In this document: one piece after another, positions 10,443-44,292 of the stretch
How positions within the stretch are numbered: the first letter of the stretch is position 1
How the letters are laid out: each line of letters starts with the position of its first letter
DNA from: Apostichopus japonicus
Lineage: Eukaryota; Echinodermata; Holothuroidea; Aspidochirotida; Stichopodidae
Reading direction: 5' to 3'
Assembly: GCF_037975245.1 (NCBI RefSeq)
Contig: NC_092575.1
Span: forward strand, 18,559,841-18,623,840
Length of the DNA stretch: 64,000 nt
Notes under the pieces: generated by a model
Databases searched by the model: none
What the model was told of the DNA's origin: nothing
The model's input: the letters and a program-made list of their open reading frames with translations, nothing else
Position numbers and translations under genes: made by a program

Positions 10443-11112
10443 ATGATGAAGACCAGGCTATCATTAGGTTTATTTAGCTTTGTCTTCCTCGATATTGGTT
10501 TATCATTTTTATTTTGGATTCATGGAAAGAATCTGAATATGTTACGAGAAGTGTCAAATTTCGATATATTGACCAGTATGGTCGATCTATTTCTGGCGTC
10601 CATCCTTCGAGGATCTGTCTTAATCGGTGCTATTCTAGGTTTTTTGCATAATCCCCATCAGGCTTCCAAGAGACTTACAAAAGGGAAGTTGTTTGTAAAT
10701 TTGGTCTGTATGTTTATAATCCTCTACGCCATCGCCAAACTTCTCATGTACTGGGAGAGTGTCAGGGACATGCGCAAACCGTGGTTCTGGTGCCTTTTCG
10801 TGTGGACATTCATAGCTTCCCTGTTGATGGTTGTTCTGTGGCGTTATCTGGGATCGTTGACGCTTTCGAGCGGTTCGCAGAGTACACTGTATGTGAACCA
10901 CACAGGAGAGGATGGAGAGACTAGACCATTGCTAGGGAACAACTCTGAAGAAGAAACCACGATTGGGAAGAACAAAAAAGGAAATGAAAAAGAAGAAGAA
11001 GAAGAAGCCAATGGCTCGTCAACTTCAGCCATCTGGCAATTAATAAGATATTCCAAGCCAGATATTCCGTACATGTTGATCGCTTTTGTAGCATTGTTGA
11101 TTGCTGCCAGCT
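10443..11112 (+). CDS. ABCB9: ABCB9 exon 1: TMD0 and linker
   Basis: 670 nt, residues 1-223 plus one base. The second codon is also ATG. Four hydrophobic helices of the lysosome-targeting TMD0, then a polar linker with an [12 protein letters not shown] acidic stretch, then TM1 of the core. The donor is CCAGCT|gtaagt. Confidence 0.94.
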
Positions 11113-17100: not shown

Positions 17101-20100
17101 GAAGCTATCGTGTACGGAATGTACGCTGCTGGCAATGCTGTAAGTCACAGTTAAATTTTGGTCGTAAGGCAGCCATCTTTGTAGATTAATTAGAGCTGTG
17201 TCTAATTGTCAGCTATAAAGGTTTTATTTGTTTTCCACAAAAGTACAAAGTGGAGGTAAGTCTTCCATAAAGCTTAAAATGCTTAACAAAGTGGAAGACT
17301 CCCTAAAGAAAAAAGTAATTAATAAATACAAGGTGAAAGTTTGTTACATAATATACACAAATTGTTGAAAAGTAAATAACTCATTTACATAATTTAATAT
17401 AATAATATCAATTCTTTTATTAAACATTTCTTAAATGAATTGTTTGTAGCCTTAGATTTAACGATGTTGCTTAATGAGTTCCATAACTTAGTTGCACGTT
17501 TGCGAAAGCTGCGTGTACCTAATTTGGTATGATAAAAGTTGCAATGAGCATTTTGTCTATTTCGGGTATTATAATTGTATAATTGCACATTAATTGTAAA
17601 GAAATTATGAAAGGAACCCGGCAGTAGCTCATGCCATGCTTTATACGTAAATACAGCAAGTTGTTTATGACTTCAAGAGTCTTGCAGTAACCAACCCTTA
17701 CATGCATGCTGACCATCTAACATGCCTCAAGCAAAGCTAGTGATGGAAATAAACAAAGAATGCTTTATCATCCCAAGTAGTTTCTAGTACCAAGGTCAGC
17801 ACTGATCAAGGAGCTACAGACTATTCTAATGTGACCGCGATAGGTGGAACTGGAAAGTTAAAAGCTGCTCATAGAAGAGAGAGAAAGGTCATAAACATTT
17901 AAACATTGGCATTCTTTGATCCTGATGAGGACATCAGAAGCAGATTAAACAAACTTAATAAAGTTGCTCCAACAAAAGTAGGAATGGGTTCATTGGTAAA
18001 ATGTAATTAACAATTGTGAATGTTAACATTGGTGAATGTTAAGGGTAGATTTAGTAGAGGAAAATGTGACACAGAGATGAACGATACTAGCCAGACAGCA
18101 GAAGATAATTGATAAAGAAAGATAACATTAATAGTAGAGTCTGATGATATGAAGAGAGGAAAATATTTCCAAGACACTTCTGTTGGATTTGTCAGTCTTG
18201 ATATTTTTAAGACAAGGAGAAAAAGATCTGTTAACAAAATGTTTATCTACTGGAATAAGCCTGTTTAGGTACATATATGCAGGGATGTGCCCACGCTGGG
18301 CGGCCCCACCCAGCACTAAAAATTACCATCCAGCACTGTCTTAAAAATCGTGAATCCCGCCCAGCACTATTTTCATCTAAAATCCCGACATTCCTAACAA
18401 TATACTCAACATAAATTGAGCCTAGCCTATGCCAAAATCATACAGACTAATAATGCAACAGTTACGCATGCGAGAAACATTACACGGCTCTCAATCTGTC
18501 CCTTGTCAAATCTTTTTGACACAAGCTAATAACTTTTACCAGATATATAATATATTTCACTAAAAAAAAGTAAAAAAATGTAAATGTTCGCAAAACTAGT
18601 ACTTGTGTATGTGCTTAAAAAGCTACACAAGTGCCAGCATTTGGCATCAGAGCACCTTCAAAAGTGGAAGGGGACACCCCCTTCCCCTCAATAGACCCCT
18701 CCCCCATGATGGCGATCAGTATACCCTGCACTCAGGAAATCCTAGGCACATCCCTGTATATACTGTATGTTGTTCTCCCCCTCTTTCCTTTCATCTTTCT
18801 GCCTGTTGTTCCATCCAATGTTGCATAGTTCAATGGTCCAATTTAGTTTGTTTGTCTACAGTTTCTGTCTACTTTAAAGGTGTGTCCTTTAAAATGTTTA
18901 TTTTATGCTTTAGACAGATGGTTATAGTTCAGAGTTTGATCGATGTCTGAGAATCTTAAGTGAAAGTTTTGAGAAATTGTTAGGACCTCCATTGCAGTAT
19001 ATACATTGTAGGGAATGAAATATATCATTCACATATTATAAAATATCCTTCACATAGATTTGTGTGTTCCATTGAAGTTGAATACTTGAGTAATTAAAGA
19101 CTCGTGTGTTAGATATTCATTAGAATACCTTCCTCTTTCACTTCTTTCAGTTCTTAGAGACGGCGATGATGATTCTGACCCTCTATTACGGAGGTCATCT
19201 GGTCATCATCAATGTCATGAGCAGCGGTCAGTTGATCTCCTTCCTCCTCTATCAGATGGAACTCGGGTCAGCTTTAGATGTAAGAAATTTTGAATTTGCA
19301 CGTTTGCTCTGCACAAAGTTATGTTTTATTTCAAATATCTGAACATAGTTTAAAAGAATTGCAGAATTTGTTGGTCATGGTATTCAAGTAGGTTGGTAGT
19401 CAAAATGTAAGTTTTAAAAGATTGGACTTTTTTTATTTTGATACTCATTTCCATAAAGAAAAAAAATAATTGAAAAAGAAATATTGCTAACTTGTACAAG
19501 TGTTAAAAGATTTAATTCCTGCTGAAATATGGTATAGTTTACAGTTGGAATCTGGTATTATTACCAGGTATGTTCTGGTCATCAGGTTTAGTTTACCTGA
19601 GGAAATCTAGCTGTCACATATCGCTTAATATTTTAGAATCCGTAATGCAGACATTCATCACTGCTTTCAGAAGTTTTCATTGTAGTTTTGCACTTCATTC
19701 AATGACAGCTTACAGTTAAAAAAATGTAATGCTGAGGTATTACTTAGGTTATATACAGAAAACCTGTGCCCAATGACTTTTGTTTTGAGAGAAATCAAAG
19801 GGAAATTTGTCAAAATGAGCAAAACTTATAAATTGGGATAATTCTGTTTTCCATTATTTCTGAAGATTAGTGAGCAGGTACAGGAGGAGGTGCATTCCAT
19901 ACTTAGTCCTTTTTGGAAAATTTGTGTATACGAGATTTCTTCCTTCATTTCCCACAAACCTCTCAACACATACACACACACATGTTTGTTTTACATTCAG
20001 ACCGAGGACCCCATTGTTTTTTCTATTGTTCAAATCCACATACTCTAACCTTAGCAATACCCCATAACAATAGAATTCTTTCGAGGACGTGGTGATTCTT

Positions 20101-23100
20101 TAGAAATCACATCAGAGGACCTGGATTTCTTTTGTTCAAGTCCTCGGTCAGAATACAAAACAAGTGCATAAATTCGTGGAATTGTAAAACAAATAATACA
20201 TACAAAAGAAGCAGACTAGTACAAAGTTATAAGCTGGTGATTCTCTGAACAAAGATTTTTGATGGAGCAGAACTAAAATTATCGTAATTTTATGAAATAA
20301 TTCAATGAACCACTATTTTGTTTTGCCCTTAAGGACATTAGCACTGTTTACACTGGATTAATGCAAGCTGCAGGGGCCTCAGCAAAAGTCTTCCAGCTGA
20401 TCAATAGAGAACCCAAGCTGAAAAATGATGGCCAAAAATCTCCAGAGCACCTCAAAGGGAAGGTGGAATTCAAAAATGTCTCATTTGCATATCCATCCCG
20501 ACCAGATTCATCAGTTTTAAAGGTAGGTTAAAAATGTTCTAATGGAATACAGTTCCAAGAAAACATTTCAGATTTATTGAACCTTTGTCATGTCCAGTCT
20601 TCCTTCTTGAAGAATAGGAATCATACTCAAATTATGTACTTTACTTTGAAGTTTGATAATATCATCATTTTCAACAGAATTAGACCTATTTTTCACTTGT
20701 GTTAGCCCAAGTCATCTTTCCAGCCCTGATATATTCATTAACTTTATACTATCAGCTCCTCTTGCCAACACTAAGCAATTAATAATGCAATATTGAGCTC
20801 TAGACTTCCCCCTACAAACTGCTACCATTATCCCATCTTTCTTTTTAAGAATGTCAGTTTTACAGCATCACCAGGCGAGATAGTAACTTTAGTCGGGCCC
20901 AGCGGAGGTGGCAAGAGTTCCTGTGTGGGCCTCCTGGAGCGGTTTTATGACCCGTCAGAGGGTCAGGTGCTGGTGGATGGTATCCCAATACAGGATTATG
21001 ATCATCATTACATCCATGAAAAGGTACAAACTTTGATTCAAATAAATAAGGTGGTTGCATATTCTTACACATGTGTTTGTAAGTATTTTAAGGATTTATG
21101 AAATGAATTTGGGACTTCAACAGGTACATAAACTGAGCGTTATAATAATAATAATATATTCATTTATAGAGTGCCACAATATGCAAATGCATTTCTATGC
21201 GCTTTACAAAAAGTGTCGTCAGAAGCGCCTAACAATCACAATATTACCCCGGTCAACGATAACCTGTCAAACACATGGCAGCAGCTAAACAGCACCCAGC
21301 TGGCAGTTTTATCTCACAGGTCCCCATTTATACACCTGGGTGAAGAGAGGCAATGGAGGAAAAGTGCCTTGCCCAAGGAAACAACGCAGTGATCTGTCTG
21401 GCCAGGACTCGAACCTGGAATCCTTAGATCACAAGTCCACTGCCTTAACCACTTGACCACACGCTCTCACCTTCTCAAGTTTTGTATATGTTTTATAATA
21501 TTGCAAATGGGAATTTCCAATGTTTGCATTACCATCTCAGGTCACAACCAAATGAATATTTCCACTGAGGTGATATCAGCATCTTTCCCAATGTTTGTAT
21601 TATAAAGTACCAATGTACCCTTGGTCTCTCTCATTTCAAGCTGATCTGATAATAAGAAAAGAAATTGACAGTCTTCTATTTGGTTAGAATTAATGATCTT
21701 TTGTCTTATTTCCAAGGCCCTGGCATTCTAACTCAACTAACACAACTTATGTTGCCAAAAATATGAAAGTTATAAAACCAGTTTATGGTCTTCCAACCTT
21801 TCTTTTTAATATATTAGCTTTTTGTCCTCTTTGTGTCAATCAATACATATTATTAAACGATAGCAAGATGTGTTCATTCAATTGGCTCTGATTAGCCAGT
21901 GAGGACATACAGTTGCCTGTAACTAGAATGCTTGCTTGTCATTTAGTAAGCATCATCTTGCACTTGGCCAGAGTACTAGTTTCAGAGTTAATTGTGATTC
22001 AATTAAATGTTTATGGAATGAATGCTCAATACTTCTTTATCAACCAAAAGTGTGTACTTTCTTTTCCAGATGGCCCTGGTCGGCCAGGAGCCGGTCTTGT
22101 ACGCACGCTCCATCCAGGATAACGTATCATACGGCCTCTCCGAGTGCCCTTTCGATGAAGTGAAACATGCTTGTGAACTCTCAAACGCTCACAAATTTGT
22201 GATTGAATTAGAAAGCGGATATGAAACACAGGCGGGGGAGAAAGGAACACAGTTATCAGGTCAGTCCAAGAACACATTAAGTTGTACTGAAGATAATAAT
22301 AAGCAGAATTGTATAGAGTCTCTTCATTGTTTAGTGATTTTCCTGACTCAAGCTGAGTCGCTCATTTTAGTCATAATATATTGGCTCCATGGGAACTAAA
22401 GTTGGCAAACTTGTTTGAGTCACTTCAGTGTTTCAATTTTCTGAGCAAATCATGATTTGTTATAATAATGGTAATCAGTTTCCTAATTTCCACTTGGTTG
22501 CTAGGAATGAATGTTAAAGCAGCTGATTGCATGTGCTGCTTAGACTAATCAGCTCACCATCAAATATACTTCTATCATGTACATTTTGTTGCTATTTTGT
22601 TGGATTAATGTCACAAAATATGTTAAAATTCTTTGAGAACGTCTGTTACTTTTTAAGAAAAAAACAATAATATTCAGTACTTAATGTATCTAACTAACTC
22701 TTGCGTAGTTCATGTAGCCAACCTTTTCTACTTTGCATGTAAGAATTGGGGCTGAAGCTGTTATTTAAGCATCTGTCAAGGATACTTATCAGCCAGTATC
22801 GTCTGATATTTGTTGCTCATCTAACATTTATATTTATATTATATCCATTAGCATTGTAAATTTTTAATGTCCATGTACAGAACAGGTAGGCCCAGTCTGG
22901 AGCAAGTGTTAAAACGTGAGACAATGTTATTTCATATATTCTCCAATGAAATATTAGCCTTATACTGCTCACTACTTGTGAGTTGTAAAAACTTGCTGCC
23001 TCATTTAATTTCCTATTAAGAACAGAAAAGACCCCCCCCCCAAAATACCAACAATTCACAAAGATACCATTTAACACTTTCTCTCTTATCTGAAGGCGGA

Positions 23101-25664
23101 CAGAAGCAGCGAATTGCTATAGCGAGGGCTCTTGTGAGGAAACCGAAAGTTCTCATATTAGATGAAGCAACAAGTGCCCTAGATGCAGAGAGCGAATATG
23201 CAGTAAGTTATACACCACATCATAGGTTGCCCTTCATAATAGCACATATAATAGACACAATATGTTGTTTAAGGGGACTGCTCTCCATTTAGTAGAGGGC
23301 AATTCCATGGTAACGGAAGGACATTGGGACTAATTTTCTGACATTTGAACAAGCATATCATGAATATCCCCATTAATTACAACAAATTATTGTCATCATT
23401 GACTAGCTATAACTACGTACTTCAATTTTCACATATTTTTTTTACACAAACCCTTCCCATTTTTGAAATATGAATATTAATGAGGTCGGTAACGGAAGGA
23501 CAGCAAACGGACAAGGGTTTTCACACGTCTTGAGTTTATTGTAAAACTCTGAATTCTATGGAGTTATTTTATTTTAGAGGGGAGAAATGTTATCCCAATA
23601 CTGTTCCCAATACTGTACCACTTTCCATTCTGAAATTATTGCTTTGGTTTTCTAGAAATATTGTGCTAATTTAAGTTAAATTTGGTAACGGAAGGACGGT
23701 AACGGAAGGAATTGCCCCTTAGTAGATATAAACATCACTCTCAGAATCAACAACTCCCACAGGATGCTGTATACAATATATGTGTATGCATGCAATGATA
23801 TTTACTTTAAATCATAGGCAAATGACTGACTGGAAAAACAAACTTGTCCTTCCGTTACTGTCCTTCCGTTACCAAAATGGTAACGGAAAGACAGGTTTTA
23901 ATCAATCATAATGAACAAAAGAAGAGGACCAGGGTGAAACTAATTATTTCATTTTGTTGGCCAATCTAAACTTGCTTTGAAGATGAACTCTCATTTTAAT
24001 CATGCTGCAACTTTTCCTGAGAAACTAAAAAAACTTGTATTTTCGGTAACGGAAGGACATTTCAAGTGGCAAAAATACCGAAGGCCATTGAAGCGGAACC
24101 AATGAGGAAAAGGGGCGAAAATATTATCCATTCAGTTTTCCATGATCTATACTCTCACATGGTAGTGGCTGATATCATTTATATACTGGCTATCAATTAG
24201 CAGTGACGAATAGTTTTTATTACCAATCATCCAATTTTCTGTAGCAACTCCTGAATTTTCATCACCCATATATTTTCATTCCAAAATGCATGAAAATTGC
24301 ATTTCTGAACCTGATTCTGGAAAATATGGACTCTTAGCTTTCATTTGACACCAAATTTACTATTGTCACACACTTTTAATTTTTTGGGTATTATGTCCAC
24401 TTTCTCATGGAATTGCCCTAGAGTACTCCATTTAGTGAACTGATTTAAGTCAGGTGTTTGAAAGGTTTGTAAGATTTACTTCTTGTGACTACTCAGACAT
24501 AGTGTAGCTTCATCTATGTTAAGTCTGTTAAATCCCAAATTCAGAGCTATACTGGTTGTAAAAGAATTAAAGCCACTTCCTTGTTATGTTTAATGATGAA
24601 TTAACATAGAATTATGGAAGAATTAGAGAGGGATCTCAATGGTCACAATATAATAACTGAAACCTACGAACGGTCTTTGCCTGATCGGTTGTCCAACTGC
24701 TTCAATAGTTAAAAGAATCTTTTGTGAATATCAGGAGTTTTTTTTATAACAAAGGGGGTTATTCCCAGTAGCCTACTTTGTTTGATATGTTGCAATGCTT
24801 CATCTGTCCACACACAAATAAATATGAGCATTTAATAAATTGGCAATTTCTTCGCAAGATATATTTAAAGTTGTGATTAAGTTTGTTAAATTTTGTTAAT
24901 TTTCAAAAACCAAACACATAGTTACTATAAGCTAACAACTCTAGCATAACATATGTAGTTAGCCTAGTTAAGACTTCTTAACAATTGAGGTTGCAATTGA
25001 TTTTATCAAAAACAGCTAGATCTTAAGGTCGGCCATTACACTGTAAAATATAATGTTGTTCATTTCTTTATTAAAAGTGAAATCAAGAGGGAAAACAGCT
25101 ATTGAATAAATCAAATGCAATCAACTGCTTTAAATTTGATGCAAGATTTTATTTTGCAGTGATGTTTGAACTTGTGCATTTGTGGTATCAGACTCTACAC
25201 TGAGTGTGAATGCTGATATCAAGGTGTCTTTCCATAGATTTTTTTTATTTTCAAGTGTTTCATTTTCTTTCCACATTTTTCTTTTTCAGGTCCAAGAGGC
25301 CATATCGGAGCAATCCAAAGACAGAACGGTGATAATCATTGCTCACCGTCTAAGCACGATCAAGAAAGCAAGTAAAATTATCGTAATCGACCACGGCCAA
25401 GTGGTCGAGAGTGGAACCCACAACGAACTCATTTCCAATGATGGAATGTATGCAAAGTTAGTGCATCGACAGTTGCTAAGCAACGAAAATGAGGACCAAA
25501 GCGACAACGTCTTTAGAACTAACCGTAGTCCGATCCAGTGCACGCCAAGAACTCGACATAGAGGCTCCTACCATTCCTTGATCACAGAGGGATTCTTCAG
25601 TGTCCGAAGTAGAAGCACGTCATACGGATCCATTAATGGTGGAACACCGTCCTGTTCTATATAA
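10443..25664 (+). CDS. ABCB9: ABCB9/TAPL-like half ABC transporter, complete, 11 coding exons
   Basis: Joins 10443-11112, 11832-11946, 13444-13574, 16119-16324, 16942-17139, 19151-19279, 20334-20522, 20850-21023, 22070-22259, 23096-23202 and 25290-25664: 2484 nt, 827 aa, every junction in phase. Known family role: a homodimeric lysosomal pump moving cytosolic peptides into the lysosome with ATP. Seen: an N-terminal four-helix TMD0 (residues 1 to about 150) resembling human ABCB9 ([25 protein letters not shown]), an E-rich linker, six core helices, and a nucleotide-binding domain with Walker [10 protein letters not shown] (562-570), Q-loop Q610, signature LSGGQ (666-670), Walker B VLILDE (686-691), D-loop SALD and switch H722. 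No catalytic residue is missing. It is longer than the human protein (about 766 aa), mainly in the E-rich linker and a serine/arginine-rich C-terminal tail. TAP1/TAP2 are less likely because of the TMD0 match. Convergent with ADAD1. Confidence 0.95.
11832..11946 (+). CDS. ABCB9: ABCB9 exon 2
   Basis: 115 nt after cttcag. Encodes [20 protein letters not shown], the TM1-TM2 loop typical of TAP-family exporters. Ends GTAAG|gtattc; the split serine joins exon 3. Confidence 0.92.
12169..12296. repeat. (CATA)n microsatellite, about 32 units
   Basis: Uninterrupted CATA repeats in ABCB9 intron 2. They produce apparent open frames on both strands (repeating YIHT and MYVC) that are artefacts. Confidence 0.98.
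13444..13574 (+). CDS. ABCB9: ABCB9 exon 3
   Basis: 131 nt. Encodes [20 protein letters not shown] and the following [12 protein letters not shown], the conserved intracellular coupling region. The donor is ACTG|gtaaat. Confidence 0.94.
14093..15195. mobile_element. hAT-type MITE, outer of a nested pair
   Basis: 8-bp target duplication ctgctctg at 14085-14092 and 15196-15203. Ends are CAGGCGCGGCGGAACGG and, reverse-complemented, CAGTGGCGGCGGAACCGG. G-runs sit just inside both ends. Lies in ABCB9 intron 3 and contains the younger element 14411-14820. No transposase frame. Confidence 0.85.
14411..14820. mobile_element. hAT-type MITE inserted inside the previous element, 410 bp
   Basis: Perfect 8-bp target duplication agtaaggg (14403-14410 and 14821-14828). 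Inverted ends are CAGTGGCGGAGC and, reverse-complemented, TAGTGGCGGATC. Shares the CTATCTAAGCG.AGCGCCACCA segment with its host element (about 14139 and 14479), so the two are related families. Confidence 0.9.
15880..15951. repeat. Dispersed short repeat, copy 2
   Basis: Matches 2898-2972 (AACTGTTAGCAAACTGCTT, CCACTAGAGAGCCTGTG). In ABCB9 intron 3, just upstream of exon 4. Confidence 0.6.
16119..16324 (+). CDS. ABCB9: ABCB9 exon 4
   Basis: 206 nt. Encodes [19 protein letters not shown] and two further membrane helices. Acceptor ggacag|GTGACA, donor GAG|gtgagc. Confidence 0.95.
16942..17139 (+). CDS. ABCB9: ABCB9 exon 5
   Basis: 198 nt, 66 codons, phase 0 at both ends. Encodes [20 protein letters not shown] and FANEDQE, the second coupling-helix region of the transmembrane domain. 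Confidence 0.95.
17211..17750 (-). mobile_element. 5'-truncated non-LTR retrotransposon (LINE) 3' end
   Basis: The minus strand encodes a reverse-transcriptase C-terminal remnant at 17588-17394: [20 protein letters not shown] then [27 protein letters not shown], the conserved end of CR1/L2/Jockey-like polymerases. It ends in a stop and a short 3' UTR (TTGTGGAAAAC.AATAAA). The upstream frame is broken. Related to 48922-49400. Confidence 0.75.
18280..18756. mobile_element. MITE with perfect 12-bp inverted ends, 477 bp
   Basis: CAGGGATGTGCC at 18280 and GGCACATCCCTG ending at 18756. The interior has repeated CCCAGCACTA motifs. Flanks are AT-rich (atatatg / tatatact) without an exact 8-bp duplication. 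In ABCB9 intron 5. hAT-like termini; superfamily uncertain. Confidence 0.75.
19151..19279 (+). CDS. ABCB9: ABCB9 exon 6
   Basis: 129 nt, 43 codons, phase 0. Encodes [18 protein letters not shown], the TM5-TM6 segment, matching the [12 protein letters not shown]-type sequence of the family. Confidence 0.94.
19987..20162. mobile_element. Small inverted-repeat element beside a CA repeat, copy 1
   Basis: Ends are TGTTTTACATTCAGACCGAG and CTCGGTCAGAATACAAAACA, inverted with a one-base shift, and an internal palindrome (TTCTTT / AAAGAA). It follows a short (CA)n tract. Two further copies sit in tandem at 36132-36492. Confidence 0.75.
20334..20522 (+). CDS. ABCB9: ABCB9 exon 7
   Basis: 189 nt, 63 codons, phase 0. 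Covers [20 protein letters not shown] at the end of the membrane domain and the start of the nucleotide-binding domain ([15 protein letters not shown]-loop tyrosine). Confidence 0.95.
20850..21023 (+). CDS. ABCB9: ABCB9 exon 8: Walker A
   Basis: 174 nt, 58 codons, phase 0. Carries Walker [10 protein letters not shown], with the middle residue G instead of the commoner S, followed by [17 protein letters not shown]. Confidence 0.95.
21142..21473 (-). mobile_element. tRNA-derived SINE
   Basis: The minus strand starts with a tRNA-like head: box A TGGTTAAGGCAGTGG (21451-21437) and box B GGTTCGAGTCC (21415-21405). It continues through a body and ends in an (ATT/AAT)n tail at 21156-21142. In ABCB9 intron 8. 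Not a functional tRNA gene: there is no terminator at tRNA length and the sequence continues as SINE body. Confidence 0.82.
22070..22259 (+). CDS. ABCB9: ABCB9 exon 9: Q-loop
   Basis: 190 nt. Encodes [20 protein letters not shown] through GEKGTQLSG. The ABC signature is split across the intron (LSG | GQ). Confidence 0.95.
23096..23202 (+). CDS. ABCB9: ABCB9 exon 10: signature and Walker B
   Basis: 107 nt. Completes LSGGQKQR and encodes [18 protein letters not shown]. Acceptor ctgaag|GCGGAC, donor GCA|gtaagt. Confidence 0.95.
23294..24425. mobile_element. Inverted-repeat transposon-like element with repeated GGTAACGGAAGGAC
   Basis: Inverted ends AGGGCAATTCCATG / CATGGAATTGCCCT lie within an 11-bp flanking duplication ctccatttagt (23283-23293 and 24426-24436). 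The motif GTAACGGAAGGAC or its complement occurs at about 23310, 23487, 23684, 23696, 23850, 23862, 23880 and 24045. No transposase frame. Fills half of ABCB9 intron 10. Superfamily unknown; an 11-bp duplication would suit a Mutator-like element. Confidence 0.78.
25290..25664 (+). CDS. ABCB9: ABCB9 exon 11: switch histidine and C-terminus
   Basis: 375 nt including TAA. Encodes [20 protein letters not shown] with the H-loop histidine, the end of the domain, and a tail of about 60 residues rich in S/R/T that is longer than in the human protein. Confidence 0.95.
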
Positions 25665-32719: not shown

Positions 32720-32833
32720 TTACTTGCTAAAACTGCCCATCTCGTTGGGCAATTTTGACCACTGGCCGTATCCTTTGATGTCCAGATGTCGTAGAAGCAT
32801 TCTCTTGGCACTGTTGTAGTTTCTGTTCTGCAA
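32720..32833 (-). CDS. ADAD1: ADAD1 exon 13: C-terminus and stop
   Basis: 114 nt. LQNRNYNSAKRMLLRHLDIK then GYGQWSKLPNEMGSFSK and TAA at 32722-32720. Matches the YxxAK..L..GxGxW..KP..xxF end of ADAR-family proteins. Confidence 0.95.
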   Translation of the reverse strand: MQNRNYNSAKRMLLRHLDIKGYGQWSKLPNEMGSFSK

Positions 32834-35800
32834 CTGTAAACAAGAACACAAACGAGGCATTATTCAAACTAGATAGCAGTTGTACACAGGTATGCCTATG
32901 GGTTAAGTTACTCGCTTTCCATTCACACTCCAAAAGGTTTCAAGCAATGTCCAGACACTAAAACGAGCATATTTCCTGACCACTGACAATCTCACCTCAT
33001 CATATCAAGTAGGACAAACTACTTACAGCTAGGTTATAGTAATTCTTTCAGGATTTTTATTTTATCTTTAACACCTCACCTTGGTACTGTGTCCACACAA
33101 CATATTCTCCCATCAACTACCCACCTCACTGTATGCCCTACCTCTATCCCACTCTTACCCATCGCTCATCCCCCACCCCCCAAAGTAAGAAAGGTCTGTT
33201 TGATCTGTCAGAGGTTATTAAGGAGACCCGTACAAACCTTCAAATCCATGTAAGTTTCATGTTCCAGTAGGTCTGGCCTATTGACTTTGTTGCACATACC
33301 ACGGAACCTACTAAAGAAAGCTGCTTTACAGATCCGGCTGGCCTTGGTGGCACCGCTCTTGAATGGTGAGCTGAAAAGATAAGCGTTTAAGAAATATTAT
33401 CCTGTTACTTTACTCTCTCGACACACTGGCACAGAACATAGTGACAGCGATACTTCCTAAACAATATCTTCACCTCTTCTCCTCTATTGTGCCTCTCTTC
33501 GGTACGTCCAGTGTTAAAGGGTGTGAAGACTCGCGCAAAAAGAAACGTCTAATGCCGGTAATCTGACCTAGTTTCGAATGAGGTGTAACAGAAGTGTTAG
33601 ACACCACCATCGATCCCAGAAAATACACATACAGCTTGCTACCCTCGGTAATTAGACACAAGTGTACAGTCAGTACATACAGCTGCTGTCAATACCCACA
33701 GCACTGTATAAACGAAACAGCGATGGACATCTCAGGTCCAGCTAAAGATAACAAGGTATTATGTTTCATTACTGTCTGCATTTTGTAGCGACACAAACAA
33801 AACGTCACTTGTAAGCAACAGGAAGTTTGTCTTTTTCGTATGGCCGCACGTGGTTGGGGCGAGTCTTATATGCCTTTAATGTTTTGAAACGAAGCTAACC
33901 GACAGCATTTATTATTAACTCAAGTGTTATAGGAGTAGCAGGTGGAATAAAATGCTCCAAACATTGGTCGGGGAAAATCTTACGCAGGGACTCTACAATC
34001 GAGGCTTGTGTTTTCTCTGTTCATATTCCTGCCGTGAAATTAACAAGTATTGCCGACGAGTAAACAATGCAATCATGAAACAAGACTCAAACACATCACT
34101 ATAAAACAGAAACCAAACTTGTAAAAACCCTGGCACTATCAAAGCTAATGAAATGGTCTTCTACAAACCTGTCCGTTATCCTGCCAGAGTCCGATTCGAC
34201 GACTTCATACGATTTGTCCCCTAGAGACCAGTTCAAGCTCAGCTTGGGTTGTTTACTTGGTTCTACGGGTACACGTCGGCTGGTTCTACCCATCTTTGGG
34301 AAATTCAAGTAGAAGTTGGCAATGTTCACAAAAATAGCCTTGTCGACTCGGGCTGCGATGGCTCTACTCAATTGTCCGTGATGGAATCCAGATCCTTGAG
34401 GAAGGAATCAAATATTAATAGTCACCCACTGTCTCACATTGTGGTTGCTTTCAAACACACAATATTTTGAAAACCTTTTGCTTTTTAAACTTAAATGAGG
34501 ATACCACACTTGAAAGGGAAGATGCTGATATGGGTGATTTCTCCTCTAAATGACACTACTCTAATTAACACTACTCTAATAAACACTACTCTGGTACATA
34601 CATTTATGCAGATTGGTAAATATTTCACAAATCTCTCTCACTTGTTGAACTTATGGGCCAGGCCAGTTTCAATTTTTCTATTTCAAATTTATTTCTTATA
34701 TGTTTGAACAGGGCTAATACAAAACATTTCAGTAGGAAGGTTAACATATGAACGACACTAGAGAAAAAGCAAGGCTGTTAGTAACCAACTCAAAATACTT
34801 GAAACATTTTCAAACAACAAACACTCCTAACGATATCACTTGCTTGAAATAAAACAAATGAGTTAATTTACTGGTGTATTTGGTAACCACAACAGAATAG
34901 CATGTGTCGTATTACAATAAACTCTGCATACCTAGCACCAAAGTTGATATATATAAGGGTTCTATTATGTGTCCGAGCAGCGCCCCCTGGATACCGATGC
35001 AGTTCCATCTCATCAGCTTATCACTCCCCGTCATCACCTTGGCAACTCCCTGGCAGAGGAAGAAAAGACAGAAATGTGCAAATATATTAAAAAAAAATAA
35101 TAATTAATTAAAAGCTGCTTTTAACCAACTGTTGAAAGAGACCATTTTTATGTTTTAATTTTTTTTTGTTATCTCTGCCATGCCTTAACTCCAATAAATC
35201 AATATTTCATGGATATCTGTTGGGAGTAAACGTAGCTCCGAACAGGTGTGGTAGGATATCAGCTTTCTGAATGGTTAATGACCTCTACCATAGTGTAAGC
35301 ATCTTTCATTATGTTTCATGAAAACACGACTTTTAGAAAAATGTGACTTCAAAGCAGGACATATGGATTGAATCCCCTATATACAATGATGATATGGCAA
35401 ATGTCTGAAAGTTATTGTTTATGATCAAACAGTACAGAAAACATTGGTGTCACTCATGTTACTTTGGAGGTCTTTTTATGATAACAATATCAGTCTTGCA
35501 AATATATGAACAATACAATATAAAGATGCTTGTATTCGTTTGCTAATACTTTCTATAATTCATCAATCATCTTGAAAAAATTCTGTCATAGGAGTAGAGC
35601 GTACGATTCTTATTCCAACACTGTCATCCTCGGGTATGGCTTCCTAAAGCAATGATTTCTTGAAGATTGATCAAATCATGACTGCTCCTTTAAACTTATT
35701 TTCTCTGTTTCACTGTTTGGACACATTCACAGTATCATTTTATATTAAAGCAGCACAAAAACAATATGCAAGTCCTATTAAACACAACTCAGATGTTATT

Positions 35801-38800
35801 AGAATGGTTCGATCACACTTTGCTTTACCTAGCAAGGCCTTATAAACACAAAAGGTTGCCTACAGGGACATTGCCATGGTTACACAGTGTTGCCATGACA
35901 ACATAGAACACTCACTTGTTGCCTGATCTCCTGAAATGTTGCAGCTGCTGGTTTAGCATAGACTTCCTGGATGTCACCTGTGAAAGCAAACACAAAAATC
36001 AGTTTGTCAATATGCAGCAGAGATCCAATAAAAACACAGAGAGATAGATACTTCATAGCAATGATGTCAAATACATAATACTGTAGTAGAAAACCTGGGT
36101 TATTGTAACATTACTCACACACACACAGGTGTATTTTACATTTAGACCCGGGACCCCATTGTTTTTTCGTTGTTCAAATCCATGTACCCTAACCTTAACA
36201 ATACCCCATACAATAGAATTCTTGCGAGGACGTGGTGATTCTTTAGAAATCACAACCAAGGACCTGGAAGTCTTTTGTTCAAGTCCTCGGTCAGAATAAA
36301 AAACAAATGCACACACGCACACACACAGGTGAGTTTTACATTCAGACCCAAGACCCCATTGTTTTTTGCATTGTTCAAATCCACATACCCTAACCTTAAC
36401 AATACCCATAACAATAGAATTCTTTTGAGGACATGGGATTCTTTAGGACCTGCAATTCTTTTGTTCAAGTCCTCGGTCAGAATTACAAAACAAGTGCACA
36501 GATAAATATCAGGCCAGGTGTATATTTGAAGGAAAGATCACAAAAGGGGAAGGGGTGGGTCATGGGTTGATATGCATGCTTACCTGTGTTACTGAGAGTT
36601 GTCAGACAGCCATTAGATGAATCTATTGCCATGTCTGGGTAATGATGACCTTCTGTTATAAACAACAGATCTCTCTCAGAAATCAGCTCGGTATCGTCAT
36701 CCCTTCAAAAGAAACAAAATGGACGACATCAAGAAGTAGAAAACAGACCATATAAACCTAACACGTCAAATACGTTACATACACCTGACGTATTCCTAAT
36801 TTGTAGAAGATTTGTAGCATTTGGATGAGATCAGGAAGGCAAGCCCTTCAAAAGGAAGAAGAAACAGATTTATGTTTTTCTAAAATACGATATATGTACC
36901 GGTACACTCTACAGGCATACAGGGGGTCCATCCCATAATATCACAGTACAACCTACTGGTACACTGTACAGGGGGTCCCTCCCATAATATCACAGTACAA
37001 TGTACTGGTACCCACTACAGGGGGTCCATCCCATAATATAACAGTACAACATACTGGTATCCACTACAGGGGGTCCATCCCATAATATCACAGTACAATG
37101 TACTGGTACCCACTACAGGGGGTCTATCCCATAATATCACAGTACAACATACTGGTACCCACTACAGGGGGTCCATCCCATAATATCACAGTACAACATA
37201 CCGGTACCCTCTACAGGTGTTACTGGGGTTCTATCCCATAATATCACATAAGGCATTTCGTTTCTGTCAAAGTGGTGCAAACAAGCTGGTGATCAGTATA
37301 ATCACTTTTAAAACACAATTTTGCATCCAGCCGTTATTAAATCAAATTAGGCAATGCCTACGAAACCTCAAATTTGCAAGTGTTGCTGGCCTAGTATTAG
37401 GCGATAAGCAAATTTAACATTTACTCTCTCAGATGAAGCATAATTGTCTGCCTCAAAGATTATCAGCTGTTGTATTTAAAAAGTAATTTTCTTTTTGTGA
37501 AAATATTTTGTGAACAACATTATGTGCAAAATGTTATGCTCAATTTAAAAGCATTTCCTATGAAAAACCTTGTAAACTTAGGCTAGGGCTAAGAATAGGT
37601 AGTCAGCTTGAACAGTGGAAAACTATCTAAGGTTTTCAAACATTTGCTGTGACATAGCATACTATTAAAAATTTTTGTTTGACATTCACGTTTAATATTC
37701 AAGTATATTGCGTGGCAAGATATTAGGTTGTGAAGGCTCAGGGAGGACAGAAGAGTTAACTTACGGCGAAAGAAATCGAGAAGCATCTCCTTTTGGGGCA
37801 GCATTCATATACAAGTGGAACTTGACGCCCTCCCTCAACGATATAATGAAAGACTGAGATTTTATAAATATGGACGGCTGGCCGTCCAAGAAATGCTTCA
37901 GTTCTCTGTACAGGTATCTGAAAAAGCAAATAATGAATGTATGATGGTGGGGAAGTCTTATAGTGAGTTGGTATAAAAAAAACACCACAACCACTATAAT
38001 TAGGCCTTCCCAGTAAATTTCTCTGATATAAAGGCTATATATTTTTTTCTGCTTAGACCTTAGTACAGCAGTCAAATACTGCCACTGTGATATATGCAAT
38101 TTTAAATTATGCCAACATTAAATAGACACATTGATCAGCATGGTTAGGGTACCTGCTCTAATATGAACAATACTCCAGTACAGCCCCTTTCCCCTTCCCA
38201 CAACACTCTTCCCCCCCACAACCCTCTCCCTCCCCACAACCCTCACTCCGCCCCCCCACGACCCTCTCCAGCCCATACACCCTGCTCCTTCTCACAACCC
38301 TCTTCCTCCCCCAACCCTCTCCCTCCCCCCATAACCCTCTCCCTCCCACACAACCCTCTCCCTCCCCACAACCATCTCCCTCTCCATTCCCTGCAACCCT
38401 CTCCTCCCCCACAACCCTCCCCAACCTCACAATCCTCTCCCTCCCACAAACCTCCCTCTCCCACAACACTCACCCTCCTCCACAACCCTCTCCCTCTCCC
38501 CAACCTGCTCCTTCTCCCCCAACCCGCTCCTTCTCCCTCGACCCGCTCCTTCTCCCCCAACCTGCTCCTTCTCCCTCAACACTCTCCCGCCCTAACATTC
38601 TTTACCTATTTTACCCACTTTTCTCTCAAACATACAACCTTACCTCTGGAAGCTCCTCCTTGCTACTGTCAGACCTGATGAGTCCACCAGGCACCGCCCA
38701 TCGGTAGTGATTCTTGACGGACTGATCACACCTCCTCCCGTCCCCACACTTACTAATTGGTACTCTCCATCTAACAAAGTAAACACAAACTTACTGTCAT

Positions 38801-41800
38801 ATTATCAAAATCATCACTGAAGTGTCCGTAACATTTCATATAAACATCTTTCTACCATCCTTGTCACAACTTTTACAAAAACCTAACACTACTCACTCAC
38901 CTGTTTTGCTTTAGACATCACCTGTAATGTCATACAGTCTACAGACCCTCGCTAAATTTGCTACAAAATATATTACCCACGAGAAGTTTTCAGCCAAAAA
39001 ACAAAGCAGGCCTGATGGAGTAGATTTTGTGTGTTTCTTATTTTAAACCTATTCATAAAGAGTATATAACCTCTGTACAATAGATACAAATATTTTTGTG
39101 CGATAAATTTCAAAATTATGTTCCCTGTTAAACAAAGACTTACTCTGAGATACCAGGAAGGCGGCAAAGCTTTCATTTTTCAGTATATCTTCTGAACCCG
39201 GGAAAGCTGTCTGGATGGCCGGTATACTGTGGGCCACTTCTTGAATCCTGTTAGCCCAATCGGCATTCAGTGTGGCCTCTGCCCCAGACTGTTCATAGCG
39301 AGGACTCTGCTGGCCTCCCTGAGCGGCCCGAGACGGCAGGGCCTGAGAGGGCCCTCTTGGTGGGCTCTGAGTTGGGCTTCTCGTCTGGCCATAGTACGTT
39401 CCATCACCCTGTGGTCCATACTGTGGGGGAAAGGGTTGACGTGGGACGGCCCCGTAGGTGTGACGCTGAGTCTGGGCCCTGTGCTGCAGAAATTCAGTAG
39501 GCGTTTGGTGATTTGGTGGGTACTGCTGTTGTTGGTAGTTACTAGGCTGTGAGGGTTTGCTACTGATTATTTTAGGGGGTCCCTTGCCCCAGGCACTTTT
39601 GATAGCAGGGGCAGGGTTTGTCTTTAAGGAGGGAAACTCTTCTTCAGAGGCTGGTCGTATAAGAGGTTGAGGCTGTGGTACCTTGTGTATGTATTCTTCA
39701 TCTTCGGTTCTACTGGTAGCCCACGCAGCTAAATCAGAAAGCAAGGAATGTGAAGGGGGAAGAAAAAATTTACCTACCACGATATTATATCACAAGAATA
39801 ACTTCAGTAAATAACATGGACAGTAACTCTTGAAGGAGTCAATATTCAGAGTCATGTGGGGCTTACAGAGCTGCAATCAATGAGATTCATGTTATTAAGG
39901 TCTGTCCTAAGAAATTACCACTCAAGTGATATGTACATTTGCAGTCTGTTAATGAATAATATCTAGTCAATTCATGAATTCAATCACAGTTTCTTGTTTT
40001 ATTTGGACACCATGACACAACGTGAAAATGACCCAAATAACTTCTAATTGAAATAAAACAGCTGATGTGTATTCTGATCTACACTATCGAGAAAAACAAA
40101 TGCAACCTCTGATCAACACCATCAAGAAACATAAATGCACCTTCTGATCAACACCATCAAGACTTTCAAATGCACCCTGTGACAGCAACATCAGGGGCCA
40201 GTGTGGGGCCCAGGAAGTATCAAAATTAGCCAATTAGAAGGAAAATTATTCATCTCATATTAACCAGGCCCCCTTATTATCCCCATGCCCGGGGGGAGTA
40301 TGGGGTCTGATACGGAGCATTGGGTCTGATACTGAGCATGGGGTCTGATATTGAGCATGGGGTGTGATACTGAGCATGGAGTGTGATACGAAACATGGGG
40401 TCTGATACTGAGCATGGGGTCTGATACTGAGCATGGGGTCTGATACTGACCATGGGGCCTGATACGGAGCATGGAGTCTGATACGGAGCATGAGGTCTGA
40501 TACTGAAAATGGGTCTGATTTTGGATCGTGGGGCTGTTGCATGCATGCGGAGGTTCAAAATCAACTGAGCAGGATTTTAACACCGAGCATGGGGCCTGAT
40601 ACAGAGCTGGGGCCTGATCTGTAATTGAAAGGCAGCCTTGGAAAGCCAAAGTATCTAGGAAAGAATATTAGTCAAACATAAGAATATCTAGACAACAAAA
40701 TTTGGGGCCAACAATGCCAACTTTCAAAGTTCAGTCTGTCTTCCGTTACCTGGCGGTTGTCGTTGTTGCTGCTGTTGGTATTGCTGTTGTGGGTGATGTC
40801 GATATTGCTGTTGTGGTTGATGTTGTTGTTGTGGTTGATGTTGTTGTTGTGGTTGCTGTTGTTGCTCTTCTTGGTAAGCTGCATACGTTCCATGGTCAGG
40901 AATATTCCACACATCCTTAGATGTCAGTTTTGGGGCTGCAGTATCAAAGCCGAGCTGAAAGTGGCTGCCAGAGGTAAACCCAGCCTGAGGAGGAGGTTCC
41001 ATTTCCTGTGTAGGGGTGTAAGGATCATATTGCTGGTGGTAACTGTAGGTCTGTCCTGAAGTTTTCAGGTCACGTTGCTCTAACCCCAGGAGACTGGAGA
41101 AAGCAATCCTGGCTGCATCTGACTTGGCCTCTTTCTTGGTTTTTCCTTTTCCTGTGTTGTGAGACAAAGACAGATGGTTATATTTCATCAACATCATTTC
41201 ACAATATAGCTGTATTCCAAACTCCCCCCAAAAAAAAAAAATGAAAAATATGAAAAATTCCACAAAATTTTTAACCAGTTTAGTCCAGCCGTGAAAACTG
41301 CAGTTGACTAAAAAATCAGCCCAAAAAACTTAGTCATAAAATTTTCCAACATCTTGTTATTGCGGATCGTGTCGTTTAGAGTATTATAACTTGTTACAAA
41401 CAGCGGTCACGTTTTAATGGGATATTGCCAGTGGTACAGTAGGCAGTCTGCCACTAATATGGAAGAGAAAAGGACATTTTCCCTCTAAAGATGTAAAAAA
41501 GGGGTCAGTGGAGTGATAATTACCGGGCTGGTACTCGATGCCGTTCACGATAGCTTTGCAACCAAAGTCGCTTGTATAGTAGCCTCCCTGGGAGGCATTG
41601 CATTCCTTAAACTGAATTTTTAGTCTTTGAACTTGTGAAAATTCATGCAATGCCATTACTGGATTCTTGGCTCCTTTTATGAAATCTTCAATGAGCTTTG
41701 GATCCGCCTGAAGGGATAGAAAGGAGAGAAATTCAGAGTAATTCATTGAAAGTTCTGTAATCTCAATGTGATTCTCTAGTCAAAAAAAAAAAAAATGCCT

Positions 41801-43706
41801 CACTGTTTGCGCCAACTTTGCGGTACCTGGTTTTCAGGAAGTCTTTAATAACCATATTCAATGTTTGCAGTAAAATGCTCTTTCTTAATCACATTCAATT
41901 CCTCATGAGAGTAAATCAATTTACTTACATAATGCTTCATAAAGAGATAAGTTTTCAAAGACTCTGCTATCCCCCCCACCCCTAATTTTGTAGATAATAA
42001 CATATATGTTCTCTCCTCTCCACATAACATTATGTTTACCATGTTACTATAACTATCAGACCTACTTATATATATGCCTACCGACCTATGCCTATGCCTA
42101 CCAACATTGTAAGTGGTATCCACGCGTACCTAGGCCAAAGTTAACACCAAGAATGAGACAATATGTGTGGAGAAAATACTACGGAGGTGCCCAGTTTACC
42201 TTTGGTGATGTTTGGATGGCTTTAATATCAACACCTATGTAATATAGCTGTCTCTTGAAAGGCTAACACTACTGTATAACTCCTTAAAGGGAGAAAGACC
42301 ATGTTATAACAATACTGTGTAACATCAGTACAGACCACATTTCAGGAAAGGTGCTAAAGATCAAGACATTATTTGGCAAACACAGATAGGGTGTAGAATT
42401 TTTCTTGTGCCCATATTAACAAGAGTTCAACTTGTTTTAAGTTCTTACCCCTTGTAAAGGACGTAACCATAGAGATGCAACAGAACTCGGAAATTGGGAG
42501 AAAATGTTTTACTTAATTCTGTGATGTAATGGCCCACATGTTGGCATCTGTGCCACATACTTGTTATTATAGCAGCACATGACCCTGCTTGGTGTATTTA
42601 ATACTGGTTGTTACCCTGGTCACACTGTACCTTCTCTTGCACCCCTCTCTCCACCCCACATCAAAAGTCTAACCTACACAGCACCGTGATAGCAGCATGC
42701 ATGAAAAATTGGTGGAACTTTTAAAACTAGTTCAGAAAAGATTTGCCAACCCCAACAACTACTTACATCCTTTGCGAAACCTGATCTGCCTATCATTGGC
42801 GTCACTTCACCACCCGACGCTCCATCTTGACTGATGGCGACATTGTTGATTACCTTCACCTTCTGGTGAGGCTGGGAAGTTGACTCCCTGGTCTAAGAAA
42901 GATAAAGACAAAAAGGAAGTGTCATAGAGGGCAGTAGTTCACAATAGATGGATAAATGGGTAGGAGAGAACTAAATATATTTAAGCCAATTGAGTTTTGT
43001 TTTTAGTCTTGTGAGTCAAATTCCTCACAGTAGGCAATCAGAAGAAATATGCGAGCAAAATGGTTTGCAATTACCGATTCAGTTTAATACAAAGTTAAAT
43101 TACCTTTAGCTCTCTCTCTTTCTTGCCAGAAAAGGGGATGCACCTTTCCCACTTTTTTAATAAACGCCATCTTTAAATTTACAAGCAATTAATTAATGCA
43201 GTAATATTTACCGGCTTTTATCTTTCATAATTATTGCAGTAAAGACTGTCATACAACAAAGTTCTCAAAAAGCGCAGACATAAATAATCTCAAAAACTTT
43301 ACAGGTGCTGTTTGGTGCTCAAGTTTTGGCAAGTTTTACAAACCTGATAGCAAATTTACTCCACAAAATAAAATTAAAATAATGATTTTGGAGTAACTAA
43401 GTACTGAAAACCCTTCTTGCCCAGACACTTTATCCTATTTAGTACTAATGAGACAAGAAACCAAACAAGAATCAAGTAACATTCCTTCAGTTTTGTTCAC
43501 CGCTGAAAATTAGTCTTTGTCTAGCCACACTATTAGAAATTGGATTCTAGTACCATATCAAACTAAGACCCATAAAACATGCATAAAACAACCCCCTATC
43601 CTTCCTGAAAATGAAATACATATTTTGGCTGTTTTTGTCCTGCATTAATACAAACCAGCAACGAGCTGCTTACCTTAGCGTTTTGGCTATAGGTTGTATA
43701 ACTCAT
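32720..43706 (-). CDS. ADAD1: ADAD1/TENR-like adenosine-deaminase-domain protein, catalytically dead
   Basis: Joins 43706-43674, 42892-42767, 41707-41524, 41151-40750, 39728-39144, 38770-38644, 37917-37765, 36702-36584, 35977-35916, 35049-34932, 34394-34169, 33370-33238 and 32833-32720: 2382 nt, 793 aa, all junctions in phase. Domains: dsRNA-binding domain about 66-138 (NPVMALHEF, KKEAKSDAA), Q-rich tract 208-248, P/Q-rich linker to about 430, and an editase domain from about 440 to 793. Family diagnostics match ADAD1: SSPFKSG..KASRICKAA, HLYMNAAPKGDA, SDKLMRWN..GIQGALL. The ADAR HAE motif is S475-G476-L477, the first zinc cysteine is K528 and the second is G605, so deamination is not expected. 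Residues contacting inositol hexakisphosphate in ADAR2 are partly kept (R481, R482, K608, R611, W781). In mammals ADAD1 is a male-germ-cell RNA-binding protein needed for sperm formation. The linker makes it longer than human ADAD1 (about 576 aa). The N-terminus is the least certain part: the frame stays open upstream of this ATG in its exon. Confidence 0.92.
33238..33370 (-). CDS. ADAD1: ADAD1 exon 12
   Basis: 133 nt. SSPFKSGATKASRICKAAFF then SRFRGMCNKVNRPDLLEHET. Nearly identical in pattern to human ADAD1 SSPFKSGxxxASRLCKAA. Confidence 0.96.
33514..33879 (+). mobile_element. TTAA-flanked MITE, copy 3
   Basis: TTAAAGGGTGTGAAGACTCG at the left and GCGAGTCTTATATGCCTTTAA (last 20 nt inverted to the left end) at the right. 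In ADAD1 intron 11. Closest to copies 2 and 4. Confidence 0.88.
34169..34394 (-). CDS. ADAD1: ADAD1 exon 11
   Basis: 226 nt. FHHGQLSRAIAARVDKAIF, FPKMGRTSRRVP and KLSLNWSLGDKSYEVVESDS GRITD, the conserved central part of the editase fold. Confidence 0.95.
34932..35049 (-). CDS. ADAD1: ADAD1 exon 10: SDK motif with glycine for cysteine
   Basis: 118 nt. GVAKVMTGSDKLMRWNCIGI then QGALLGHIIEPLYISTLVL. The last zinc cysteine of ADARs (SCSDK) is glycine here. Confidence 0.95.
35916..35977 (-). CDS. ADAD1: ADAD1 exon 9
   Basis: 62 nt. GDIQEVYAKPAAATFQEIRQ Q. Short linking exon; acceptor tttcacag, donor CAACAA|gtgagt. Supported by phase with both neighbours. Confidence 0.85.
36132..36305. mobile_element. 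Small inverted-repeat element beside a CA repeat, copy 2
   Basis: Same sequence as 19987-20162 (ATTTAGACCCGGGACCCCAT ... CCTCGGTCAGAATAAAAAAC). Preceded by (AC)n. In ADAD1 intron 8. Confidence 0.75.
36333..36492. mobile_element. Small inverted-repeat element beside a CA repeat, copy 3
   Basis: Tandem neighbour of copy 2, separated by a CA-rich spacer (AAATGCACACACGCAC). Slightly shorter owing to a deletion where copies 1 and 2 read GGTGATTCTTTAGAAATC. Confidence 0.75.
36584..36702 (-). CDS. ADAD1: ADAD1 exon 8
   Basis: 119 nt. DDDTELISERDLLFITEGHH and YPDMAIDSSNGCLTTLSNT. Equivalent to the variable loop between the two cysteine motifs of the editase domain. Confidence 0.88.
36897..37250. 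repeat. 49-bp minisatellite, about seven units
   Basis: Unit ACTGGTACCCACTACAGGGG plus GTCCATCCCATAATATCACA plus GTACAACAT. CCCATAATAT recurs at roughly 49-bp spacing. In ADAD1 intron 7. Confidence 0.92.
37765..37917 (-). CDS. ADAD1: ADAD1 exon 7: PKG in place of PCG
   Basis: 153 nt. YLYRELKHFLDGQ..VKFHLYMNAAPKGDASRFLS. The zinc-binding cysteine of the PCG motif is lysine, as in ADAD1 proteins. Confidence 0.95.
38178..38590. repeat. Polypyrimidine (CCCTCTCC..CACAA)n tract
   Basis: Over 400 bp of C/T-rich degenerate repeats on the plus strand, hence a G/A-rich tract on the coding strand of ADAD1. It begins about 50 nt after the exon 6 donor. Many G-runs of 3-8. Creates spurious proline-rich and glycine/arginine-rich open frames. 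Confidence 0.92.
38644..38770 (-). CDS. ADAD1: ADAD1 exon 6: degenerate HAE motif
   Basis: 127 nt. Encodes EYQLVSVGTGGGVI..DGRCLVDSSGLTVARRSFQ. D-SSGL-TVARR aligns with the D-C-HAE-IIxRR zinc motif of ADARs, and both H and E are gone. Confidence 0.94.
39144..39728 (-). CDS. ADAD1: ADAD1 exon 5: P/Q-rich linker and start of the deaminase domain
   Basis: 585 nt, the largest exon. Carries an EEEFPSLKTNPAP..KSAWGKGPP motif, then disordered P/Q/G-rich sequence, then NRIQEVAHSIP..SEDILKNESFAAFLVSQ leading into the editase fold. Confidence 0.93.
40297..40621. repeat. 19-bp minisatellite, about a dozen units
   Basis: Unit GAGCATGGGGTCTGATACT in ADAD1 intron 4, with two decayed units at 40579-40621. 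No frame contains a stop on the minus strand, so three overlapping open frames appear; all translate to the same 19-residue period (SVSDPMLSIRPHAQYQTPC). Confidence 0.93.
40750..41151 (-). CDS. ADAD1: ADAD1 exon 4: end of dsRNA-binding domain and Q-rich tract
   Basis: 402 nt. GKGKTKKEAKSDAARIAFSS completes the RNA-binding fold (the KKxAK RNA-contact motif). A linker and a 41-residue glutamine-rich stretch (QQQHQPQQQ units, CAA/CAG codons) follow. Confidence 0.93.
41524..41707 (-). CDS. ADAD1: ADAD1 exon 3: first part of the dsRNA-binding domain
   Basis: 184 nt. Encodes KNPVMALHEFSQVQRLKIQF (alpha-1 and beta-1) through GCKAIVNGIEYQP. Closely resembles NPVSALHQFAQ of human ADAD1. Confidence 0.94.
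42767..42892 (-). CDS. ADAD1: ADAD1 exon 2
   Basis: 126 nt, 42 codons, phase 0. Encodes TRESTSQPHQKVKVINNVAI and on to GRSGFAKD. Low-complexity N-terminal region with no domain. Confidence 0.82.
43674..43706 (-). CDS. ADAD1: ADAD1 coding exon 1
   Basis: Encodes MSYTTYSQNAK before AAG|gtaagc. ATG context is gaaaATGa. Acceptors at about 43746 (cctcag) or 43719 (catccag) would put a leader in this exon. The frame is open upstream (PPLIQKILK), so an earlier start in another exon is possible. Confidence 0.65.
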
Positions 43707-43930: not shown

Positions 43931-44292
43931 TTAAAGGGTGTGAAGACTCGCGCAAAAAGAAACGTCTAATGCCGGTATTCTGACCTAGTTTCTAATGAGA
44001 TGTAACAGAAGTGTTAGACACCACCATCGATCCCAGAAAATAGACACACAGCTTACTACCGTCGGTAATTATTAGACACTAGTGTACAGTCAGTAACAGC
44101 TGTGGTCAATACCAACAGCACAGTGTACAAACCATACAGTGATGGACATCTCAGGTCCAGCTAAAGATAACAAGGTATCACGTTTCATTACTGTCTGCAT
44201 TTTGTAGCAACACAAACAAAACGTCACTTGCAAGCAACAGAAAGTTAACTTTTTCAGATGGCCGCACACGGTTTGGGTCTTCAATGCCTTTA
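43931..44292 (+). mobile_element. TTAA-flanked MITE, copy 4
   Basis: TTAAAGGGTGTGAAGACTCG ... GGGTCTTCAATGCCTTTAA, with TTAA at both borders. Lies about 225 bp upstream of the ADAD1 start codon used here, in a 5' intron or promoter. Confidence 0.88.

Follow-up and report, generated by a model that had tools for sequence, protein, structure and literature searches.

A sea cucumber ADAD gene in which all four catalytic positions of the deaminase domain are replaced

Introduction

What can a deaminase domain still be for once every zinc ligand and the catalytic glutamate have been replaced? This question is raised by a gene of the sea cucumber Apostichopus japonicus, which occupies positions 32720..43706 on the minus strand of a 64,000-nucleotide stretch of assembly GCF_037975245.1 (contig NC_092575.1, positions 18,559,841 to 18,623,840 of the forward strand). 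We call this whole stretch the window and number features by their position in it. A preliminary description of the sequence had read the gene as an invertebrate ADAD1 that has lost its catalytic centre while keeping its fold. Here we compare the gene with its human and same-genome relatives, and the comparison points to an ADAD whose losses are concentrated where an editing enzyme would do its chemistry. Papers are cited by their PMC identifiers.

Results

The spliced protein was aligned by phmmer to human ADAR2 (PDB 1zy7), with 110 of 324 aligned residues identical. In this alignment H394, E396, C451 and C516 of ADAR2 fall opposite S475, L477, K528 and G605 of ADAD (H394S, E396L, C451K and C516G), and a separate six-member MAFFT alignment, comprising ADAD, human and sea cucumber ADAR1 and ADAR2, and sea cucumber ADAT1, yields the same mapping. 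The earlier claim that every zinc ligand and the catalytic glutamate are replaced is thus borne out in two alignments, and its motif readings, namely S475-G476-L477 for HAE, P527-K528-G529 for PCG and TGSDK (with G605) for SCSDK, all match the spliced model. All four residues are present in human ADAR1, human ADAR2 and the three paralogues in the same genome. Since the codons would need at least 3+2+3+2 base changes, at least 10 in total, to give H, E, C and C, base-calling error is no explanation for the lost residues. The protein is predicted to be unable to bind the catalytic zinc or to deaminate adenosine.

The losses are unevenly distributed over the domain. Taking as invariant the 98 columns that are identical in human and sea cucumber ADAR1 and ADAR2, ADAD retains 64 and has lost 34, and none of the four catalytic columns is among those kept (hypergeometric P 0.013). 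Within the active-site and flipping-loop segments (ADAR2 394-396, 446-453 and 481-516, catalytic columns included), which were picked post hoc with the lost columns already known, 7 of 29 invariant columns are kept, compared with 57 of 69 elsewhere (Fisher 6e-8). Aligned in this way, the losses are shown to cluster round the active site and the base-flipping loop. Of the fold that the earlier description called otherwise intact, much of the core is kept.

The residues that hold inositol hexakisphosphate (IP6) are mostly preserved. Ten of the 12 direct contacts, as listed in Table 1 of PMC10278661, are the same as in human ADAR2, and binding is predicted from sequence. The exceptions are S531A, a change also found in human ADAR1, and K690L, which is unlike all four ADARs compared. 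K483, T513 and C516, which we take to be the links from IP6 to zinc in ADAR2, are changed to L, V and G, respectively, and D392 and K519 are kept. Judged by these residues, the connection between IP6 and zinc is broken in ADAD.

Such a remodelled pocket might instead have gained another catalytic or ligand-binding activity, for example if Lys528, at the former zinc site, bound a nucleotide or an anion. The replacements C451K, E396L and C516G would suit this idea, as would the retention of P450, G452 and D453 (ADAR2 numbering) beside C451. Yet the extracts of the ADAD literature examined here make no mention of an activity of this kind, and we consider it improbable.

These readings depend on the gene model, which comprises 13 exons and 793 codons with a sole, terminal stop; all 12 introns are GT-AG and the phases are consistent across all splice junctions. 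Exon 1 (43674..43706) carries the ATG start as modelled, exon 2 follows at 42767..42892, and exon 3 (41524..41707) contains the bulk of the double-stranded RNA-binding domain (dsRBD; PF00035, residues 69-134, E 2e-10). The end of the dsRBD, including KKEAK, and then a Q/P-rich linker are encoded by exon 4 (40750..41151), and exon 5 (39144..39728) adds low-complexity linker and stops shortly before the deaminase domain. In total the two domains are separated by about 290 residues, and residues 141-430 are 51% Q, P, S, G and Y. The A_deamin domain (PF02137, residues 451-783, E 4e-72, profile positions 1-327 of 329) begins eight residues past the exon 5/6 junction and is spread over exons 6-13, in agreement with the eight to nine perfectly phased exons described before. 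Besides these two families, no Pfam family matched the protein at E 0.001.

Within the deaminase domain, exon 6 (38644..38770) encodes S475-G476-L477 (38678-38670) and the IP6 residues R481 and R482, and exon 7 (37765..37917) encodes P527-K528-G529 (37796-37788). Exon 8 (36584..36702) is followed by exon 9 (35916..35977), the counterpart of the base-flipping loop. T604-G605-SDK (35031-35017) and the IP6 residues K608 and R611 lie in exon 10 (34932..35049). Beyond exon 11 (34169..34394), the remaining IP6 residues are found in exon 12 (33238..33370; K727, Y752 and K756) and exon 13 (32720..32833; Y762, K766 and W781), the latter also carrying L784, which stands for ADAR2 K690, and the stop codon. 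At the other end of the gene, an acceptor-like site lies at 43746 and no in-frame stop occurs upstream of the modelled ATG until 43784; for this reason the N-terminus of ADAD is uncertain, and the protein could be longer by a further exon upstream.

The missing motifs could in principle sit on alternative exons, in which case the replaced residues would be an artefact of the gene model. We searched the 64,000-nt window by permissive tblastn with human and sea cucumber ADAR1 and ADAR2, plus ADAT1, and among the best 45 hits no second exon with HAE, PCG or SCSDK was found, matches outside the modelled exons having E values of 0.31 or worse. As every splice phase also fits the model, an artefact of this sort is extremely improbable.

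The introns and flanks of the gene also contain repeated DNA. A dispersed element is present in two copies, one in intron 11 (33514-33827) and one just upstream of the gene (43931-44246), pieces of which are 95% and 92% identical; by eye, the ADAT1-type gene on contig C3 has an intron with a translated stretch that resembles it. Tandem repeats, with 49- and 19-base units and a C-rich array, are located in introns at 36869-37260, 40277-40570 and 38151-38573.

A further possibility is that the gene is heading towards a pseudogene and that its lost residues reflect decay and no new use. Its long branch in the deaminase tree (2.8 changes per column) and the 34 lost invariant columns would be expected of such a gene. 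Against this stand the 793 codons without a stop, the GT-AG ends at 12 of 12 introns, and the clustering of the losses, which are not scattered. In addition, when neutral substitution was simulated at 0.1 changes per site, frames acquired a mean of 10.1 stops and none of 2000 stayed intact. We judge this explanation very improbable, and, on the simulation of decay and the branch length, an old undisturbed pseudogene is likewise very unlikely. The simulation demonstrates that the gene is coding but does not demonstrate selection on every part of the fold; such selection we infer from the intact frame together with the pattern of kept columns.

We then placed the gene among the deaminases of its genome. 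A PF02137 profile search of 671,581,487 bases in 35 contigs, in which all 15 first-look candidates were scored, returned 13 matches at four loci, namely ADAD, an ADAR2-type gene on contig C4, an ADAR1-type gene on contig C16 and the ADAT1-type gene on C3, whose model spans only part of the deaminase domain. Compared with human ADAR2, the ADAR2-type gene is 72% identical over the first half of its deaminase domain and 53% over the second, and a single 525-codon open frame holds two dsRBD-like segments and half of the deaminase domain. It has one intron within the domain, compared with five in the ADAR1-type gene. A genome-wide z-alpha search, with two candidates scored, gave a single match, which sits upstream at the ADAR1-type locus, and no Z-DNA-binding domain at the ADAD locus. 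Because the other three A_deamin loci all keep H, E, C and C, the catalytic loss is, judged by these residues, particular to the window locus. In mammals the family includes three ADAR and two ADAD genes (PMC4693238); among the four A_deamin loci found here there is no ADAR3 and only one ADAD. Seven pattern matches to the ADAD domain in viral contigs included no relative.

Two features of the paralogues were seen in passing. In the ADAT1-type gene, the exon between PCG and SCSDK carries eight tandem units like TIESNNADRQ, and in the ADAR1-type gene the intron ahead of the last modelled exon contains frames that by eye are reverse-transcriptase-like.

With a single dsRBD followed by a single A_deamin domain and 0/4 catalytic residues, the gene is, by architecture and residues, an ADAD of the sea cucumber, a paralogue within the ADAR family. 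An active ADAR1- or ADAR2-type enzyme was rejected because H394, E396, C451 and C516 read S, L, K and G, and ADAT1 was rejected since the protein has a dsRBD and is without H, E, C and C. Of the earlier name, the assignment to an ADAD-type gene of an invertebrate stands; ADAD1 as against ADAD is unsupported and appears too specific a label, for ADAD1 and ADAD2 cannot be told apart here, the PDB matches of the protein including no vertebrate ADAD.

Which ADAR lies closest is a question on which the lines of evidence differ. In a six-sequence deaminase tree, where it is the only ADAD row, ADAD is unplaced, and no branch is starred. The diagnostic columns (4 ADAR1-like, 8 ADAR2-like and 19 neither) lean, if anything, to ADAR2, and pairwise identities are 31.3-32.6% to all five family members. 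By comparison, three of the eight ADAD introns in the aligned region coincide in both column and phase with introns of the ADAR1-type gene, which has five there; at least three coincidences arose by random placement in 0 of 200,000 trials. The partial ADAT1 model matches one of the three as well, and an ADAT1 donor lies near the third common site in a different phase. A fourth ADAD-ADAR1 pair agrees in phase but is offset by four columns where the alignment has gaps, and it was not counted. Because the tree, the diagnostic columns and the identities do not decide, only the introns speak for an affinity with ADAR1. Non-sharing with the ADAR2-type gene says little, since that gene has one intron in the domain, and ancestral introns lost by ADAR2 would equally account for the coincidences. 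The common introns agree with the position of ADADs as the sister group of all ADAR1s in a published tree (PMC9989829).

The recognised neighbours all lie to the left of ADAD. Exons of an ABC transporter occupy 16948-23196 on the plus strand, with Pfam matches to ABC_membrane at 16948-17139 and ABC_tran at 20871-21023 and 23092-23196; by eye, frames at 10431-11183 and 25287-25661, which matched no Pfam family, resemble the two ends of this transporter, presumably ABCB9/TAPL-like. A minus-strand exon at 4926-5144 is ubiquitin-like (PF00240, 2.8e-10), and by eye we take it to be Elongin B-like. Three frames to the right of ADAD matched no family.

The mitochondrial contig of the assembly has 16,099 bases, of which the first 10,000 were examined. 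There nad4L lies between cox1 and cox2, a gene order of echinoderms, the gene identities other than cox1 being our assumption. In a gapless alignment of cox1 to PDB chain 8ugh_4A, 9 of 9 AAA codons fall on Asn, 11 of 11 TGA codons on Trp, 4 of 5 AGA codons on Ser and 12 of 22 ATA codons on Ile; these assignments identify the mitochondrial code as that of echinoderms (NCBI table 9). Five cox1-like pieces were also seen at 14745-31219 of contig C29, perhaps mis-assembled mitochondrial DNA or a transfer to the nucleus.

Discussion

What, then, might such a protein do? We think it probable, though well short of certain, that ADAD serves as a pseudo-deaminase scaffold that binds double-stranded RNA, perhaps in germ cells. 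Its deaminase domain would still fold round IP6, the dsRBD would bind structured RNA, and the pseudo-deaminase together with the linker would recruit partners, making the whole protein an RNA- and protein-binding scaffold. A possible site of action would be germ-cell granules, as with mouse ADAD2, which forms such granules together with RNF17 (PMC10359003). ADAD1 and ADAD2 are required for mouse male fertility, and their loss leads to male sterility with editing unchanged (PMC7360552). In zebrafish, Adad1 is required for germ cells; its deaminase domain is predicted to be inactive, yet the missense change M392K in that domain abolishes function, and what Adad1 does at the molecular level is still called elusive (PMC10437952).

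Several points weigh against this proposal. Retention of the IP6 contacts is by itself not significant (9 of 10 invariant contacts, P 0.078), and the residue at K690 is L. Of 22 ADAR2 residues taken to contact RNA or flip the base, 19 align and 4 are kept (G374, R455, G487 and K594, with R455 matched by phmmer and not by MAFFT), and the changes include E488D, R510V, R474M, R477N and R590V; for this reason the deaminase domain may not contact RNA in the ADAR manner. The dsRBD preserves the stretch KKxAK, which we assume to be a motif of this domain, as KKEAK, a point in favour of the proposal, but in one loop it has SQGGYYTSDF where aligned ADAR dsRBDs show GPPH, GPVH or GQSH, so that it may not bind RNA. 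Expression of the sea cucumber gene in the germ line, finally, is a suggestion carried over from vertebrates.

The main alternative is that this dead ADAR acts as an editing regulator, competing with the ADAR1 and ADAR2 of its genome or delivering RNA to them, and both partners exist here as genes with intact motifs. There is precedent in the squid ADAR/D-like protein, which carries E396A, C451S and C516A, has lost RNA contacts and inhibits squid ADAR2 but not ADAR1 in vitro (PMC10278661), as well as in vertebrate ADAR3 and C. elegans ADR-1, the latter regulating editing without catalysis (PMC7360552). The unchanged editing in mouse Adad1 and Adad2 mutants argues the other way (PMC7360552). 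A single dsRBD and a mostly lost flipping loop may, in addition, lower competition at edited adenosines, though inhibition can persist despite such losses, as in the squid protein. On balance we regard a regulatory role as unlikely, if deserving of attention.

A more specific form of the scaffold proposal can be put forward tentatively. ADAD might be a zinc-free pseudo-deaminase held together by IP6 alone, in which Lys528 replaces the charge of the metal and Gly605 provides the space that this lysine needs. In germ-cell granules, a protein or RNA partner would dock on the surface that once flipped bases, and selection would maintain the protein in echinoderms at large. A domain in which the catalytic centre is gone and most of the IP6 cradle and the fold are kept would be a natural case of scaffold and enzyme cleanly separated.

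In the literature collection searched, no paper on sea cucumber ADAD or ADAD1 was found. The preliminary description had stressed that the gene lies outside vertebrates, which is correct for this gene and not new: ADADs described as catalytically inactivated are reported from some protostomes and deuterostomes (PMC9989829), an ADAD clade emerged when 14 lophotrochozoan genomes were surveyed (PMC6651903), and ADAD-like architectures are reported from sponges and ctenophores (PMC4323055), even though one paper still terms Adad1 vertebrate specific (PMC10437952). Invertebrate ADADs, dead ADADs and the loss of all zinc ligands are already known from PMC9989829 and PMC7360552. What is added here is the replacement of the full catalytic centre, three intact paralogues in the same genome, the clustering of the losses and the introns common with ADAR1.

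Like vertebrate ADAD1/TENR and ADAD2 and the invertebrate ADADs, the sea cucumber protein joins one dsRBD to a C-terminal A_deamin domain, has lost active-site residues and coexists with ADAR1 and ADAR2. It differs from mouse ADAD1 and ADAD2, reported as mutated at three of the four catalytic positions (PMC7360552), in having all four replaced, which fits the earlier suggestion that this copy is further from an enzyme than mammalian ADAD1. Squid ADAR/D-like is also an invertebrate, dead protein that has lost the glutamate and two cysteines and keeps 9 of 12 IP6 residues as in human ADAR2 (Table 1 of PMC10278661), but it retains the histidine (H311) and has two dsRBDs (PMC10278661). C. elegans ADR-1 is alike by description, each zinc-coordinating residue being reported as mutated (PMC7360552), and differs in its two dsRBDs (PMC7762157). 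The ADAR1-type gene of the same genome has three intron positions and phases in common with ADAD and differs by its intact H, E, C and C and its upstream z-alpha; these common introns provide an independent line on the origin of ADADs.

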